From NCBI GenBank assembly GCA_903837135.1, contig CAILTK010000072.1, positions 1-64,000 of the forward strand: a stretch of 64,000 bases of DNA. Direction: 5' to 3'. Numbering within the stretch: the first letter of the stretch is position 1; each line of letters opens with the position of its first letter. A program made the position numbers and the translations under genes. Shown here piece by piece: positions 6,316 through 59,504 of the stretch. Source of the stretch: an uncultured Caulobacterales bacterium. Lineage in GTDB: Bacteria; Pseudomonadota; Alphaproteobacteria; Caulobacterales; Caulobacteraceae. The notes beneath the pieces are model-generated. The model was not told the origin of the DNA and made no database searches. It saw only the letters and a list, made by a program, of their open reading frames with translations.

Positions 6316-6333
6316 GGGGCCAAGCAATTATCT

Positions 6334-6468
6334 CCTCTCCCCCCTTGAGGGGGAGAGGGCAAGGTGAGGGGGGTGCCGGCGTGCGGCTGGCAGGTCCGCG
6401 TCAAGGGTTCGGCCGCCTTCGTCGGCCGCACCCCCGCCCCCTGCCCCCCTCCCCTCAAGGGGGAGGCG
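6334..6468. repeat. Palindromic repeat element, family A, copy 1 (between bkdA1 and bkdA2)
   Basis: The left end has a 9-bp hairpin (CTCTCCCCC with GGGGGAGAG, loop CTTGA, 6335-6357) followed by GGGGGGTG. The right end has CACCCCC followed by CTCCCCTCAAGGGGGAGG, so the two ends are themselves inverted relative to each other. The same layout recurs at 8157-8315 and 58050-58177, both inside genes. Here it fills the spacer and leaves only the GGAAGGAG ribosome-binding site of bkdA2 intact. The paired hairpins may affect the relative levels of the two E1 subunits. Confidence 0.85.
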
Positions 6469-6481
6469 GAAGGAGCATCCG

Positions 6482-7537: not shown

Positions 7538-9217
7538 ATGGGGCGCTTTGTCTTCAAACTGCCGGACGTGGGCGAAGGCACCGCCGAGGCCGAGATCGTC
7601 GCCTGGCACGTCAAGGTCGGCGACCTGATCGCCGAGGACGCGCCGCTCGTGGACGTGATGACCGACAAGGCCACCGTGGAGATGACCTCGCCCGTGGCGG
7701 GCCGGGTGATCGAGACCCGCGGCGCGCCGGGCGACCTGGCCCCCGTCGGCGGCCCCATCGCCGTGTTCGAGGTCGAGGGCGCGGGGAATGCGGCCGCCGT
7801 CGCGCCGCCTCCTCAGTCGCTCCGCGACAGCTCCTCCAAAGGGGGAGCAGCGCCAGCTCCTCCCCCTCAGGGGGAGGAGGCGCGGAGCGCCGGAGGGGGG
7901 CCAGCCGCCGCCGGCCTCAAAGGTGATTACGCCTTCCGCCTCCCCGACGTCGGCGAAGGCACCGCCGAGGCCGAGATCGTCGCCTGGCACGTCAGGGTCG
8001 GCGACACGGTCGCCGAGGACGCGCCGCTGGTCGACGTGATGACCGACAAGGCGACGGTGGAGATGACCTCGCCGGTGGCCGGGACCATCGTCGCCATCCA
8101 CGGCGACGTGGGCGCCATGGCCGCGGTCGGCGGAGTGCTGGTGGAATTTTCAACGGGTCTCCCTTCCCCCGCGAGGGGGGAAGGGGCGGGGATGGGGGTG
8201 AACACGCCGCCATTGCAGCAGGAGGCGCAGGAGGCGGCGCCTCCCTCGCCCACCCTGGCGGCCGTGGCGCCCGTTCACCCCCCCTCCCCACCTCTCCCCC
8301 CTCGAGGGGGAGAGGCCATGCGCCCCAGCCGCGCCGAAGGCGAACGGCCGCTGGCCTCGCCCGCCGTGCGCCGTCGCGCCGAGGATCTCGGCGTGAAGTT
8401 GTCGTACGTGGCGGGAACCGGGCCCGCCGGGCGGATCACGCACGAGGATCTGGACGCTTTCCTGGCGTCCGGCGGCCCGCCGGCTCCCACGGCGGCGCCG
8501 ACCTCGGCCTACGCCCCGCGCGAGGGCGTGGACTCGGTGAAGGTGATCGGCATGCGCCGCGCCATCGCCCGGCAGATGCAGGAAGCCAAGCGCCGCATCC
8601 CCCACTTCGCCTATATCGAGGAAGTGGACATGACCGAGGTGGAGCGGCTGCGCGCCCATCTCAACGCCACCCACAAGGACCGGCCCAAGCTGACCGTCCT
8701 GCCGTTCATCATGCGGGCGCTGGTCAAGGTGCTGCCCGACTATCCGCAGATCAACGCCCGCTTCGACGACGAGGCCGGGATCGTGCACCGCTCGCGGCCG
8801 GTGCACTTCGGCATCGCCACCCAGACGCCGCAGGGGCTGATGGTGCCGGTGGTGCGCCATGCCGAGGCGCTCGACCTGTGGGGTTCGGCGGCGGCGGTGA
8901 CCCGGGCGGCGGACGTCGCCCGCTCGGGCAAGGGCTCCAAGGACGAGCTGTCCGGCTCGACCCTGACCATCACCTCGCTGGGACCGCTCGGCGGGATCGC
9001 CACCACCCCGGTGATCAACCACCCCGAGGTCGCCATCATCGGCCCGAACAAAATCGTCGACCGTCCGGTGGTGCAGAACGGCCAGGTGGTGGTGCGCAAG
9101 ATGATGAACCTGTCGTCCTCGTTCGATCACCGGGTGGTGGACGGCTTCGACGCCGCCGAATTCATCCAGCGCATCAAGGCCCTGCTCGAGAACCCGGCCG
9201 CCCTGTTCATCGATTGA
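7538..9217 (+). CDS. bkdB: Branched-chain 2-oxoacid dehydrogenase E2 (dihydrolipoamide acyltransferase) with two lipoyl domains and repeat-derived linkers
   Basis: Core acyltransferase of the complex, 559 residues. Domain order: lipoyl domain 1 (about 1-80, lipoyl-Lys K44 in D-K-A), linker, lipoyl domain 2 (about 128-205, K171), linker, E1/E3-binding domain (about 272-310), then the catalytic domain ending with S-F-D-H-R-V-V-D-G, whose His is catalytic. The first 55 residues of the two lipoyl domains are almost identical, pointing to a recent internal duplication. Most bacterial BCKDH E2 proteins have one lipoyl domain. Both linkers are the in-frame translation of genomic palindromic repeats (7806-7905 and 8157-8315), hence runs such as P-P-Q-S-L-R-D-S-S and L-P-S-P-A-R-G-E-G. 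It starts immediately after bkdA2, and E3 follows 11 bases later. Confidence 0.92.
   Translation: MGRFVFKLPDVGEGTAEAEIVAWHVKVGDLIAEDAPLVDVMTDKATVEMTSPVAGRVIETRGAPGDLAPVGGPIAVFEVEGAGNAAAVAPPPQSLRDSSSKGGAAPAPPPQGEEARSAGGGPAAAGLKGDYAFRLPDVGEGTAEAEIVAWHVRVGDTVAEDAPLVDVMTDKATVEMTSPVAGTIVAIHGDVGAMAAVGGVLVEFSTGLPSPARGEGAGMGVNTPPLQQEAQEAAPPSPTLAAVAPVHPPSPPLPPRGGEAMRPSRAEGERPLASPAVRRRAEDLGVKLSYVAGTGPAGRITHEDLDAFLASGGPPAPTAAPTSAYAPREGVDSVKVIGMRRAIARQMQEAKRRIPHFAYIEEVDMTEVERLRAHLNATHKDRPKLTVLPFIMRALVKVLPDYPQINARFDDEAGIVHRSRPVHFGIATQTPQGLMVPVVRHAEALDLWGSAAAVTRAADVARSGKGSKDELSGSTLTITSLGPLGGIATTPVINHPEVAIIGPNKIVDRPVVQNGQVVVRKMMNLSSSFDHRVVDGFDAAEFIQRIKALLENPAALFID
7806..7905. repeat. Palindromic repeat element, family B, in frame inside the E2 gene (linker 1)
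   Basis: Reversed, its first part reads GCTCCCCCTTTGG, GGAGCTGTC, GCGGAGCGACTGAGG. This nearly matches the intergenic element at 13219-13258 (GCTCCCCCTTTGG, GGAACTGTC, ACGAAGTGACTGAGG). The second part adds another hairpin (CTCCTCCCCCT with AGGGGGAGGAG). It encodes the stretch between the two lipoyl domains without breaking the frame. Confidence 0.8.
8157..8315. repeat. Palindromic repeat element, family A, copy 2, in frame inside the E2 gene (linker 2)
   Basis: The left end CTCCCTTCCCCCGCGAGGGG... ending GGGGGTG and the right end CACCCCCC... CTCTCCCCCCTCGAGGGGGAGAGG follow the same layout as the element at 6334-6468. It lies between lipoyl domain 2 and the subunit-binding domain and is translated as a Pro/Gly/Ala-rich linker. 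The middle part differs from copy 1 and has probably diverged under coding use. Confidence 0.75.
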
Positions 9218-22132: not shown

Positions 22133-23533
22133 ATGAACGCCCAGCTCCCCCCCCTTGAGCGCCTGAAGGTCCTGGTCGGCGAGGGAGGCTGGTCGAACGA
22201 TCCGGACCGGCTGCATCCCAAGCTGGTGGAGTGGCGCGAGCGGTGGGTGGGGAGCACGCCCCTGCTCCTCCTGCCGCGCACCACCGACGAGGTCTCCGCC
22301 ATCGTCCGCCTGTGCGCCGAAACCGGCACGGCGATCGTCCCTCAGGGCGGCAACACCGGTCTCGTCGGCGGGCAGATCCCCCACGGCGAAATCCTGCTCT
22401 CCACCGAGCGCCTGAACCGGATCCGCGAGGTGGCGCCGGACGACGACGTGATGGTGGTGGAGGCGGGCGTCACCCTGCTGCAGGCGCAGGAGGCGGCGGC
22501 CGCGGCCGGCCGGTTCTTCCCGCTGAGCCTGGCCGCCGAGGGCACGGCCACCATCGGCGGCAATATCTCCACCAACGCCGGCGGCACGGCGGTGCTGCGC
22601 TATGGAACCATGCGCGACCTGGTGCTGGGGCTGGAGGCGGTGCTGCCGTCGGGCGAGGTGTTCCATGGGCTGAAGCGGCTGCGCAAGGACAACACCGGCT
22701 ATGACCTCAAACAGCTCCTGATCGGGGCCGAAGGCACGCTGGGGGTGGTCACCGCCGCGGCGCTGAAGCTGTTCCCCGTGCTGGCCGACCGGGCCGTGGC
22801 CACCGTGGCTCTGAAGAGCCCGGCCGACGCCATCGCCCTGCTGCACCGCGCCAAGGCCGAGAGCGGCGGCGCGGTCGAAGCCTTCGAGCTGATGAATGCG
22901 CTCGGCGTCGGCTTCGCCGAGACCCACCTCGGCCTGCGCCCGGCGCTGCAGGGCGCGCCGCCCTGGGTGGCGCTGATCGAGATGGCTTCGGCGGAGCCCG
23001 GGCTCGCCGGGCGGGCGATGGAGCGCCTCTTGGCCGCCGCCCTCGAGGACGACCTGATCCAGGATGCGGCCCTGGCCCAGAACGAGACCCAGGCTAAGGC
23101 CATGTGGGCGGTGCGCGAGGGCCAGTCGGGCGCGCAGAAGCCCGAAGGCGCGGCGTGGAAGCACGACATCTCCGTTCCCGTCAGCCAGGTGGCGCGCTTC
23201 ATCGAGCAGGCTTCGGCCGCCGTGGTGCGGCTTGCGCCCGGCGCCCGCATCGTCGCCTTCGGCCACGTGGGCGACGGCAACATCCACTACGACGTGCTGC
23301 GGCCGCCGGGCTCGGACGAGGCGGCGCACACGGCGATGCGGGACGAGGGGGCCAAGGCGGTGCACGACATCGCCGTCGGCCTTGGCGGCTCGATCTCGGC
23401 CGAACACGGCCTCGGCACGATGAAGTCCGCCGAGGCCCTGACCTACAAGTCGCCCGTCGAGATCGCCACCCTGCGCGCCCTCCGCGCCGCCCTGGACCCC
23501 AAGCGGATCATGAACCCGAAGGTGATGTTCTGA
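22133..23533 (+). CDS. FAD-linked oxidase, D-2-hydroxyglutarate/lactate dehydrogenase-like (GlcD family)
   Basis: Flavoprotein of the vanillyl-alcohol-oxidase fold, 466 residues. The FAD-binding domain carries P-Q-G-G-N-T-G-L-V-G-G near residue 71 and N-I-S-T-N-A-G-G near 144. The C-terminal domain has G-H-V-G-D-G-N-I-H-Y near residue 380, whose histidines bind the metal and substrate in D-2-HGDH homologues, and the terminal S-A-E-H-G-L-G and P-K-R-I-M-N-P-K motifs. The best guess is D-2-hydroxyacid oxidation, feeding electrons to a quinone or ETF. ATG 22133 is the only sensible start. The gene ends against a repeat shared with the 26.1-kb region. Confidence 0.88.
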   Translation: MNAQLPPLERLKVLVGEGGWSNDPDRLHPKLVEWRERWVGSTPLLLLPRTTDEVSAIVRLCAETGTAIVPQGGNTGLVGGQIPHGEILLSTERLNRIREVAPDDDVMVVEAGVTLLQAQEAAAAAGRFFPLSLAAEGTATIGGNISTNAGGTAVLRYGTMRDLVLGLEAVLPSGEVFHGLKRLRKDNTGYDLKQLLIGAEGTLGVVTAAALKLFPVLADRAVATVALKSPADAIALLHRAKAESGGAVEAFELMNALGVGFAETHLGLRPALQGAPPWVALIEMASAEPGLAGRAMERLLAAALEDDLIQDAALAQNETQAKAMWAVREGQSGAQKPEGAAWKHDISVPVSQVARFIEQASAAVVRLAPGARIVAFGHVGDGNIHYDVLRPPGSDEAAHTAMRDEGAKAVHDIAVGLGGSISAEHGLGTMKSAEALTYKSPVEIATLRALRAALDPKRIMNPKVMF

Positions 23534-23561
23534 GACCTTCTACAGGATCGTCGCAACAGTA

Positions 23562-23622
23562 GGCCTCATCCTGAGGCGCCCGCGCAGCGGGCCCCGACCC
23601 GAAGGGCGGCGAAGCCAACGAC
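23562..23622. repeat. Palindromic repeat, family C, copy 1
   Basis: GGCCTCATCCTGAGGCGCCCGCGCAGCGGGCC is the reverse complement, bar one base, of 26117-26148. It contains the CCTCATCCTGAGG core typical of alphaproteobacterial intergenic repeats, and the CCCGC...GCGGG part forms a hairpin. It lies between the convergent FAD oxidase and bfr genes. Confidence 0.8.
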
Positions 23623-26109: not shown

Positions 26110-26220
26110 CCTTCGAGGCCCGCTCCGCGGGCGCCTCAGGATGAGGGTTTCTACTGAAGCGACCAAAAAAGTGGCCTCATCCTGAGGGGCGAGGCGCAGC
26201 GGAGCCTCGAAGGACGAGGC
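26110..26220. repeat. Inverted pair of family C repeats
   Basis: The first unit (26110-26147, ending CTCAGGATGAGG) and the second (26173-26220, starting CCTCATCCTGAGG and ending CCTCGAAGGACGAGG) face each other across about 25 bases, a BIME-like pair. The first unit repeats the 23.56-kb element. They occupy the gap between the convergent DUF4180 and uppP genes. Confidence 0.85.
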
Positions 26221-53523: not shown

Positions 53524-53666
53524 TCATCCTCGGGCGGACACCCGCCCTGGCGGGCGGGAGACCCGAGGACCCAGCAGCGCGCCACTGGGAAGCGACTATG
53601 GGCGGCCGCGTCGACCGCAGGTCGGCTGGGTCCTCGGGTCTTCGCTCCGCTACGCCCGAGGATGAC
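53523..53666. repeat. Palindromic element, family E
   Basis: GTCATCCTCGGGC (53523-53535) and GCCCGAGGATGAC (53654-53666) are exact inverse copies. Inside them GACCCGAGGACCCAGC and GCTGGGTCCTCGGGTC form a second nested pair. GGTCATCCTCGGG...CGAGGACCCA repeats of this style are common in alphaproteobacterial genomes. It fills the gap between the convergent thiE and amidohydrolase genes. Confidence 0.85.
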
Positions 53667-53698
53667 CACATAATTTGGGCGACCTCAAATTGAGCGCC

Positions 53699-56967: not shown

Positions 56968-57944
56968 GCCGCGGCCCTGAACCGACTCCCCCCCGCGCCC
57001 AGAGCGAGGCCTTCGTCGCCTTGCCCGACGACGCCGTGCGGGCGATCGCCGGACCGCACGGCCGCCACGCCGCCCTGATCGAGAACGCCTTCGACGTCCA
57101 TGTGGAGACCCCCGGCGGCGGGGTGCAGTTGAAGGGGCCGCCGGGCCGGCGCGCGCCGGCGCACCGCGCCGTCGAGCTCATCGCGGCCCGCGTGGCCCTC
57201 GGCGCCGAGGTGGACGAGAGCGACGTGCGCGCCGCCATCGCCGCCGCCCGCGCCCCCGCCACCGGCGAGGCCCAGGCCGCGCCCCTGCCGCTCGGCCGGC
57301 GCGGCGTGGTCGCCCCCAAGACCGGCGCCCAGGGCCGCTATCTTGAGGCCCTGCGCACCCATCCCTTGGTGTTCGGCGTGGGGCCGGCCGGCACCGGCAA
57401 GACCTTCCTGGCGGTGGCCCACGGCGCCTCCATGCTGATGCGCGGCGAGGTCGACCGGCTGGTGGTGACCCGGCCGGCGGTCGAGGCCGGCGAGCGGCTG
57501 GGCTTCCTGCCGGGCGATCTCAACGAGAAGGTCGATCCGTATCTGGCGCCGATCTGGGAGGCGCTGAACGATCTGATGGGCGGCGAGCAGGTGCGCCGGC
57601 GCCGCGACCGGGGCGAGATCGAAGTGGCGCCGATCGCCTTCATGCGCGGCCGCACCCTGAGCCACGCCTTCGTCATCCTCGACGAGGCGCAGAACACCAC
57701 GCGGCTGCAGATGAAGATGGTGCTGACCCGGCTCGGCGAAGGCGCCCGCATGGCGGTGACCGGCGATCCGAGCCAGGTCGACCTCGTCAACCGCTCCGAC
57801 AGCGGCCTGTCGCACGCCGTCTCCATCCTCGATGGCGTCGAGGGCGTCGCGATCTCGCGCTTCACCGCCTCGGACGTGGTCCGCCACCCCTTGGTCGAGC
57901 GGATCGTCAAGGCCTACGACGCCGACGCGGCCGGACGGCCGTGA
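56964..57944 (+). CDS. PhoH-like ATPase
   Basis: Predicted RNA-associated P-loop ATPase, 326 residues. The Walker A G-P-A-G-T-G-K-T is near residue 136 and the Walker [10 protein letters not shown] near 240. The M-V-L-T-R-L-G-E-G and V-T-G-D-P-S-Q-V-D motifs of PhoH follow. TTG 56964 overlaps the miaB stop (TTGA) and has GGAG seven bases earlier, so I take it as the start. Its stop overlaps the GTG start of ybeY. PhoH and YbeY are often adjacent and thought to act together on ribosome quality control or RNA decay. Confidence 0.92.
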
Positions 57945-58546
57945 CCATAGAACTCGTGACCATAGAAATGGAGGTCGAGGACGACGCGTGGACCAACGCG
58001 CTGCCGGACTGCATCGCGATCGTGGAGCACGCGGCGGCGGAAGCTTTGTCCTCTCCCCCCTTGAGGGGGAGAGGGAAGGGAGAGGGGGGTGAAGGCGCGA
58101 CGCCGAAAGGCTTGTACCCCAGGGACGGCCGCCTGACTTCGGCCGCACCCCCTACCCCCTCCCCTCAAGGGGGAGGGGGTATCTCAATCCTCCTCACCGA
58201 CGACGCGTCGATCCGCGAGCTCAACGCCGACTTCCGCGGCAAGGACACGCCGACCAACGTGCTGTCCTTCCCCGCCGCCGCGAGCGCCCGGCCGCATCTG
58301 GGCGACATCGCCCTGGCCTACGGCGTCTGCGCGCGCGAGGCCGAGGCTCAGCAAAAGCCCCTTGCGCACCATCTGATGCATTTGACCGTGCACGGCGTGC
58401 TGCATCTGCTAGGCTACGATCACGAATCCGACGCCGAGGCTGAGGCGATGGAGGGGGTCGAGCGCGCGATCCTGTCCAAGCTCGGCGTTCCCGATCCTTA
58501 TGCGCCCCCCGGCGATGGGGTCACCGAGGCGAATGCCCAGCTCTGA
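57941..58546 (+). CDS. ybeY: Endoribonuclease YbeY carrying an in-frame palindromic-repeat insertion
   Basis: Metal-dependent RNase for 16S rRNA 3'-end maturation and 70S quality control. The H-G-x-L-H-L-x-G-Y-D-H motif is complete (H151, H155, H161). The protein is 201 residues rather than the usual 150-160. About 44 residues (S-S-P-P-L-R-G-R-G to P-S-P-Q-G-G-G-G, roughly 37-80) interrupt the fold just before the I-S-I-L-L-T-D-D strand and are a translated family A repeat. Three starts are possible: GTG 57941, which overlaps the phoH stop; GTG 57956; and ATG 57968. The first 12 bases are repeated at 57956. The corC-like gene overlaps its end by 14 bases. Confidence 0.93.
58050..58177. repeat. 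Palindromic repeat element, family A, copy 3, in frame inside ybeY
   Basis: The left end CCTCTCCCCCCTTGAGGGGGAGAGGG is identical to that of the intergenic copy at 6334-6359. The right end CACCCCCTACCCCCTCCCCTCAAGGGGGAGG matches 6428-6466 with small changes. The copy is about 128 bases and keeps the reading frame of ybeY. Three sites share this element, two of them inside genes. Confidence 0.88.
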
Positions 58547-59504
58547 CGGCCGAAGTCCCGACACGCTCCCGCCCGCGATCCCCTCGCGGCGGCGAGGGCG
58601 GAGACGCTCGGTCGCGCGACGGCTGTTCAGCCTGTGGTTCGGCGAGCGGCCGCGCCACGCCAATGGTGGGATCGGCCACGACGGCGAACCGACCGAGGAT
58701 CCCGTCGCCGCCGAGATCGCCGATCAGGCCGAGGTCTTCGCCACCCTGCGCGTCTCCGACGTGGCCACGCCGCGCGCAGACATCCAGGCGCTGGAGGTCT
58801 CCACCCCCCTGTCCGAGGTCGTGCAGCGGTTCCTGGAGAACGAGCACTCGCGCATGCCGATCTATCGCGAGACCCTCGACGACCCCCTGGGCGTGGTTCA
58901 CATCAAGGATCTGTTCAAGTTCATCACCCCGACCGCCGCCGAGCCCGAACGGGCGCCGCGGGCCTCGTGGAAGGACCCGGTGCTGCACCGGCTGCGCCGC
59001 GACGTGCTGATCGTGCCGCCGTCCATGCGCGCCTCGGACCTGCTGGTGAAGATGCGCGCCCAGCGCATCCACATGGCCATGGTGATCGACGAGTACGGCG
59101 GCGTCGACGGCGTGGTGACGCTGGAGGATCTGGTCGAGGCGGTGGTCGGCGAGATCGACGACGAACACGACGAACACACCGCCGCCCTGGTCAGCCGTCC
59201 CGGCGGGGTGATCGAGGCCGACGCACGGGCCTCGCTCGAAGAGGTCGAGAAGCGGCTTGGCGCGGCCCTGGCGCCCGAGGATCTCGAGGAAGAGGTCGAT
59301 ACGGTGGCGGGCCTGGTGACCACCCTGGCCGGACGGGTGCCGCAGCGGGGCGAGGTGATCGTGAGCCCCGCCGGCTTCGAGTTCGAGGTGATGGAGGCCG
59401 ATCCGCGCCGCATCCGCCGCCTGCGCATCCGCCCGCCCCGTACGCCGGGCGCGCCGGGGGACGAGGCGGCCAAACCCCCGCTGACGGACGAAGACGCCGC
59501 GTGA
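58533..59504 (+). CDS. CorC/TlyC-family CBS-domain protein
   Basis: Cytosolic or membrane-associated protein of 323 residues with two CBS domains (about 70-200) and a C-terminal CorC_HlyC transporter-associated domain (about 215-290). Seen: R-M-P-I-Y-R-E-T in CBS 1, [14 protein letters not shown] in CBS 2 and D-T-V-A-G-L-V in the last domain. No DUF21 membrane part is present, as expected for CorC of the lnt neighbourhood. It is probably involved in Mg2+/Co2+ efflux. ATG 58533 overlaps the ybeY stop by 14 bases, and the lnt start overlaps its own stop (GTGA). Confidence 0.9.

Follow-up and report, generated by a model that had tools for sequence, protein, structure and literature searches.

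In-frame palindromic repeats at one loop of the RNase gene ybeY in Caulobacteraceae

The locus described here raises the question of how a dispersed palindromic repeat came to lie in frame within a conserved RNase gene, and whether its position reflects tolerance of the insert or attraction to the site. The window, i.e., the whole stretch of DNA that was analysed, comprises the first 64,000 nucleotides of contig CAILTK010000072.1 from an uncultured Caulobacterales bacterium (genome G000 in the following). The ybeY gene of this window directly follows phoH on the plus strand, and its GTG start overlaps the 3' end of phoH. The features to which the text refers are listed below.

56997..57944, plus strand: phoH (5' bound provisional), adjoining ybeY upstream, served as control
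57941..58546, plus strand: ybeY, endoribonuclease YbeY with insert, open reading frame with GTG start, 201 aa
57941..58048, plus strand: N-terminal YbeY segment (strand 1, helix 1), frame conserved, score 92 against the consensus peptide
58049..58179, plus strand: palindromic repeat element of 131 bp, in frame at about residues 37-80 of ybeY, with genome copies, absent from most relatives read
58049..58075, plus strand: left terminal hairpin with 11-bp stem, from the fold of the 131-nt element
58155..58179, plus strand: right terminal hairpin with 11-bp stem, related to the left hairpin in inverted orientation, from the fold and minus-strand self-matches of the element
58180..58546, plus strand: C-terminal YbeY segment with HxxxHxxxxxGxxH, which we take to be the metal-site motif, from Pfam match and orthologue comparison
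58536..59504, plus strand: CorC/HlyC-like gene (presumably so, from operons of such make-up), adjoining ybeY downstream, served as control
6333..6469, plus strand: second copy of the ybeY element family in the window, outside any open reading frame of 100 aa

The element has a hairpin at either end and a longer inner stem, and the whole 131 nt fold at -82.6 kcal/mol. The preliminary description had reported a palindromic repeat in frame inside ybeY, an exact match of its left end to an intergenic copy and a gain of about 44 residues, and all three points were borne out. The extent of the element is placed at 58049-58179, which corresponds to codons 37-80; the 27 bases that start at 58049 recur without change at 6333-6359, followed by 82% similarity over 62 nt, and its right part matches 6438-6469 at 88%. 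Across the copy at 6333-6469 with 90 nt per side, zero frames are open. The genome-wide search revealed three further near-full copies, at C89:88430, C72:6333 (the one within the window) and C84:16413, with 75-76% identity to the ybeY element (E 9.4e-21 to 1.5e-18), as well as partial matches, many of which are single hairpins. The similarity of the ybeY element to its genome copies is far beyond chance.

The Pfam domain PF02130 (YbeY) spans residues 81-181 behind the insert (E 1.4e-33), and this match improves to E 6.6e-35 once both flanks are joined without the insert. The solved homologues of this YbeY are 1xax and 1xm5. The AlphaFold prediction (62 sequences) gave pLDDT values of 90-98 for blocks 11-40 and 81-190 and of 46-62 for blocks 41-80, and placed the insert between the helix at 24-36 and the strand at 80-86; the best structural match was E. 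coli YbeY 1xm5, with a TM-score of 0.83-0.85 by target length. The PF02130 domain and the YbeY fold are those expected of a YbeY endoribonuclease. The core is predicted to be intact and the insert to be disordered. Judging from the sequence, the protein is probably a working YbeY enzyme that tolerates the insert, and the insert would be translated in vivo. Orthologues, genome copies and the structure model all support the earlier proposal that a dispersed element was inserted in a loop.

The comparison with related YbeY sequences covered 119 nearest genomes (own included), of which 112 had a YbeY match, and the junctions were read in 70 genes. Most of these junctions lack the segment, the loop from helix 1 to the ILLTDD strand being about 5 to 15 residues long, and a conserved host domain is therefore rejected; the segments of the relatives that do carry one differ, and several are themselves genomic repeats, which excludes the conserved host segment that the preliminary description had named as a way to be wrong. 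Clear same-site inserts were found in four near relatives (G001, G019, G060 and G046). The wider family survey (390 genomes, 376 with a ybeY match) added the in-frame cases G311, G319, G393 and G386, and among the 376 family genomes at least 9, counting G000, have a palindrome inserted in frame in the loop that leads from helix 1 to strand 2. G303 is a tenth case, in which ybeY changes frame between its two halves, at a palindrome of 25 bp. This survey covered the best approximately 160 of the 376 places, 80 relisted low scorers and the 70 junctions read; about 100 mid-scoring genomes were left out of the one-by-one survey, and short inserts may be missed. The start of every insert is no more than about four codons away from the residue that ends the helix, and no such insert was seen at other points of ybeY among the family rows listed, which leave out those mid-scoring genomes. 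The 80 named genome loci (79 read) yielded one insert, in a record matching G393. The frame split of G303 (L133) may be a frameshift, a sequencing error or a decayed insert, and short GC-rich stretches in the ybeY loop of G023 (L084) and G013 (L035) resemble remnants of larger palindromes.

The neighbouring genes served as controls in the same 119 genomes. No insert of at least 20 aa was found in approximately 110 orthologue rows of phoH, where the match of the order relative G093 to PhoH set in at residue 106, nor in approximately 105 orthologue rows of the CorC-like gene, its variable first 60 or so residues excepted. By contrast, ybeY had four inserts (G000, G019, G046 and G060) among the 70 junctions. 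The phoH gene of G001 (L032), a genome that also has a ybeY insert, contains an extra loop of 14 residues, the DNA of which folds only moderately. An assembly artefact could be suspected because the window's genome is a draft of 120 contigs, but ten genomes have inserts at the ybeY site and one of them (G046) is a single contig; the finding of other inserts at the same site in different genomes makes this explanation, also raised in the preliminary description, hardly credible.

Outside the family, the order search gave a match in 393 of 398 genomes and the class search in 382 of 387; as these searches returned best places only, they are weak evidence of absence. Thirty low or split scorers were followed, and by eye no palindrome-like insert at the ybeY site was seen among the genes read, a reading that left out the genes of G776, G836, G709 and G691. 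A few other alphaproteobacteria, namely G891 (L342), G811 (L343), G922 (L347) and G776, have about 27-36 additional residues in loop 2 of YbeY, and no palindromic insert was seen in loop 2 in the rows read. The longer loop 2 is acidic in G891 and G811 and contains a short Met-Thr-Ser-Thr-Ala repeat in G922, and G831 (L345) has a Gln/Gly/Val-rich tandem repeat right before the YbeY domain, at loop 1.

Several kinds of element are represented among the ybeY inserts, and five genomes hold additional copies of their own insert. Besides G000, these are G060, the insert of which occurs in at least 39 other places at up to 93% (full length), G046 with about 26 other places among the matches listed and full-length ones at up to 82%, G386 with 22 other places among the matches listed and full-length ones at up to 83%, and G019 with two other near-full copies at 82-83%; this evidence covers these five genomes and not G001, G393 or G303. 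The insert of G001 is a short palindrome encoding the peptide IPAFAGM, and longer elements with paired ends occur in G019, G060, G386 and the Caulobacter-like group, insert lengths reaching about 220 bp. In the families of G046, G060 and G386, 20 further copies each were aligned and have the same borders as the ybeY copies; a target-site duplication was not visible by eye in these three alignments of 21 sequences each. The terminal inverted repeats of the G060 family are 27 bp long. The Rfam search returned 31 hits at E up to 1, all under the family thresholds and mostly microRNA models matching the long hairpin.

Based on these observations, we consider it probable, at roughly 70%, that REP- or MITE-like selfish repeats repeatedly landed in one permissive loop of YbeY and were tolerated there. 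The mechanism would be that a non-autonomous palindromic repeat (REP doublet/REPIN- or MITE-like) enters ybeY in frame at the loop that connects helix 1 with strand 2 and is translated as a disordered Pro/Gly/Arg-rich linker, leaving the enzyme core intact, and that different repeat families of other Caulobacteraceae enter the same loop on separate occasions. Insertions elsewhere in genes would mostly be lost, and those in the loop would survive if they are in frame and free of stops. A transposition enzyme presumably stands behind the elements, and tolerance rather than targeting would be the cause of the site.

All nine in-frame inserts are free of stops and leave the gene open; among 60 intergenic copies, the length is a multiple of 3 in 20, and the frame in which ybeY reads its insert is open in 23. 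The N-terminal half of the nine inserted genes scores 58-118 against the consensus peptide (median 89), and the mean score of 61 genes without a large insert is 89. These numbers bear on the explanation that the insert lies outside the working protein, the two halves being made apart or translation starting downstream of the insert. Such an arrangement is suggested by G303 with its halves in different frames, but nine of the ten occupied genes keep one open frame throughout, with conservation of the N-terminal half, which makes it very unlikely.

Occupied and empty genomes are interspersed in a simple tree, and parsimony suggests about seven separate insertions, a count based on a FastTree of short protein parts taken without support values. 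The occupied lineages are the pair G000/G001, G019, G060, G393, G386, and a group of five Caulobacter-like genomes (G319, G046, G303, G311 and G023) in which the ybeY site holds an insert or an apparent remnant. The spacers of the G046, G311 and G319 inserts have a mutual likeness of 0.53-0.72, as compared to at most 0.45 with the intergenic spacers of G046 (15 of 20, the ones that could be excised); this suggests a single old insertion in the Caulobacter-like group. Some inserts of different lineages belong to one superfamily: the insert of G393 is 84-88% similar to the Caulobacter-like ones over about 130 aligned columns, and those of G000 and G386 are 80% similar over 123 aligned columns. 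Both this likeness and the common descent indicated by the Caulobacter-like spacers would fit one old, family-wide insertion that was lost many times, with the differences between elements brought about by conversion. Such a history is nevertheless highly improbable, given that the sister genomes G000 and G001 hold unrelated elements, that the inserts of G060 and G386 are close to their own resident copies and that empty relatives stand between the occupied ones.

Among three Caulobacter-like genomes, the dN/dS of the insert is 0.89-1.23 versus 0.20-0.30 in the rest of ybeY, with dS of 0.46-0.56 at the synonymous sites of the gene; values of about 1 mean that the inserted peptide is free to change. 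Between the inserts of G046, G311 and G319, the core arms of the hairpin show just 0-3 differences in 80 positions, next to spacers that are 28-46% diverged, and one core A-T pair has become G-C on both sides. This conservation of the arms could be due to gene conversion by dispersed copies or to selection on the hairpin. Near-identical arms beside diverged spacers are unlike neutral filler, unless gene conversion keeps the arms alike.

Whether the other copies also lie inside genes was examined for 60 of them, the best-scoring ones (20 each) from G046, G060 and G386, genomes that were chosen for their ybeY insert, with up to 700 bp taken per side; for the copies L289 and L311 the right flank was just 30 and 59 nt. 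A copy was called genic when a frame ran open through the element and the adjoining 90 nt at both ends, with codon-usage scores above zero on both sides. This test recovered all nine ybeY inserts (9/9) and none of the 60 other copies; 28 of the latter have some open frame, none of them scoring above zero on both sides. The ybeY copy is therefore the sole genic one among the 21 looked at in each of these three genomes. An earlier coding-frame test with 240 nt per side likewise placed 0 of the 60 copies in one open coding frame. It missed the ybeY insert of G000 itself because the left flank there spans two genes, and it was therefore replaced by the 90-nt open-frame test, with the same conclusion. 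In the 240-nt test, the best frame was identical on the two sides for eight of the 60 copies; seven of them have a stop within about 50 bp outside the element, and the flank of the eighth was too short. Judged by the best frame on either flank, the neighbouring genes converge at 28 copies, run in tandem at 28 and diverge at 4, some of these scores being weak. The count of copies inside genes that had been proposed for the window's genome gave 0 of the 3 other near-full copies, which have no open frame at all. The idea that such families invade coding genes across Caulobacterales is thus to be narrowed: invasion is recurrent in ybeY, and otherwise genic copies look rare in the genomes tested (0/60 in three relatives, 0/3 here).

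About seven events at one point of ybeY, as against 0 of 60 other copies in genes in three genomes, may also be explained if this point is a real landing site, or if an mRNA hairpin is selected that tunes the decay or translation of phoH-ybeY. The arms conserved far beyond the spacer, with their compensatory pair change, and the occupied site throughout the Caulobacter-like group of five, provided that the short stretches in G023 and G303 count as remnants, speak in its favour. Moreover, loop 2 is length-tolerant yet had no palindromic insert in the rows read, and tolerance alone does not obviously explain the one site. But most relatives do without an insert, gene conversion or family similarity can keep the arms alike, and the inserted peptide is without sign of constraint. 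It is unlikely, though worth serious consideration, that unrelated palindrome families of Caulobacteraceae have a genuine landing site, or a home kept by selection, at the ybeY point; as a rival account of the data at hand, we rate a landing site or selected hairpin a shade lower still. If true, the hairpin in the mRNA would serve the phoH-ybeY operon or the site would attract transposition machinery, and an RNase gene would carry a long hairpin in its own message.

Tolerated landing of selfish repeats in a permissive loop, the reading that we prefer, can be set beside several known systems. The REPIN/RAYT system has two hairpins in inverted order. The ybeY elements resemble it in having two inverted hairpins and no obvious target duplication and, in G060, G046 and G386, a high copy number; with palindromes in inverted order, many copies and a position mostly outside genes, they have these features of REP/REPIN elements. 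A match to Y1_Tnp (RAYT-type) was present in five of the ten genomes and in none of the other five (several of them drafts); G001, G019, G060 and G386 had no match, and by eye no copy of the element was seen in the flanks of the single Y1_Tnp gene of G000. RAYT as the general mover is thus unsupported.

Rickettsia palindromic elements (RPE) of about 100-150 bp are self-folding and occur in frame in conserved genes as well as between genes, and one RPE-carrying enzyme, Gmk, is reported to be still active (PMC2229807). The ybeY element, a palindromic insert within 100-150 bp, is like them in size, self-folding, in-frame reading in a conserved gene and copies between genes. It differs in that the taxon is another one, the other copies are non-genic in the genomes tested and one gene has been struck repeatedly by different elements. 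The GTAG and CGTC REPs are palindromes, often in inverted pairs, which lie mostly near gene 3' ends and sometimes in open reading frames; different REPs occur at about the same recB site in two Xanthomonas species, and some REP-bearing open reading frames are the only modified one in a species (PMC3733652). The ybeY case was not found in the portion of that paper at hand. The ybeY inserts exceed such intragenic REPs in length (up to about 220 bp), and a single loop was hit about seven times. MITEs fused in frame include ERIC, RU and QMITE (PMC2229807 and PMC5896051), and in-frame MITEs occur in Coxiella (PMC5896051). The ybeY elements share with MITEs the terminal inverted repeats, the intergenic bulk and the occasional in-frame fusion, here in ybeY; no target-site duplication was seen by eye. 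The CIR of Caulobacter, linked to the cell-cycle methyltransferase, is described in PMC2229807 as having a GANTC site and stops in six frames and as not intragenic. The 131-nt element has open frames, sits in a gene and by reading contains no GANTC, and it does not fit that description. A further source on known relatives of in-frame palindromic elements is PMC2267715. In the literature searched for YbeY with palindromic elements, no report of recurrent ybeY inserts was found; events of this kind are already known from Rickettsia and REP surveys, and within the reach of these searches the repeated use of one YbeY loop is undescribed.

In-frame palindromic inserts are usually single curiosities, whereas here about seven of several kinds lie in one RNase loop. 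The recurrent ybeY inserts amount to a natural replicate experiment that can separate tolerance from targeting, and they would illustrate the way in which selfish repeats give proteins new segments, stay in frame and degenerate. For annotation, they are a warning that Pro/Gly/Arg-rich stretches of such kind can derive from repeats.

Other repeats were also observed in the window. Another repeat family, of the CCTCATCCTGAGG type, occurs at 23531-23597 and 26113-26190 as an inverted pair that is 94% complementary. An inverted repeat with 26-nt arms lies at 53550-53650, just upstream of the open reading frame at 53675, and a direct repeat of 201 nt, 83% identical, is found at 7552-7752 and 7933-8133.
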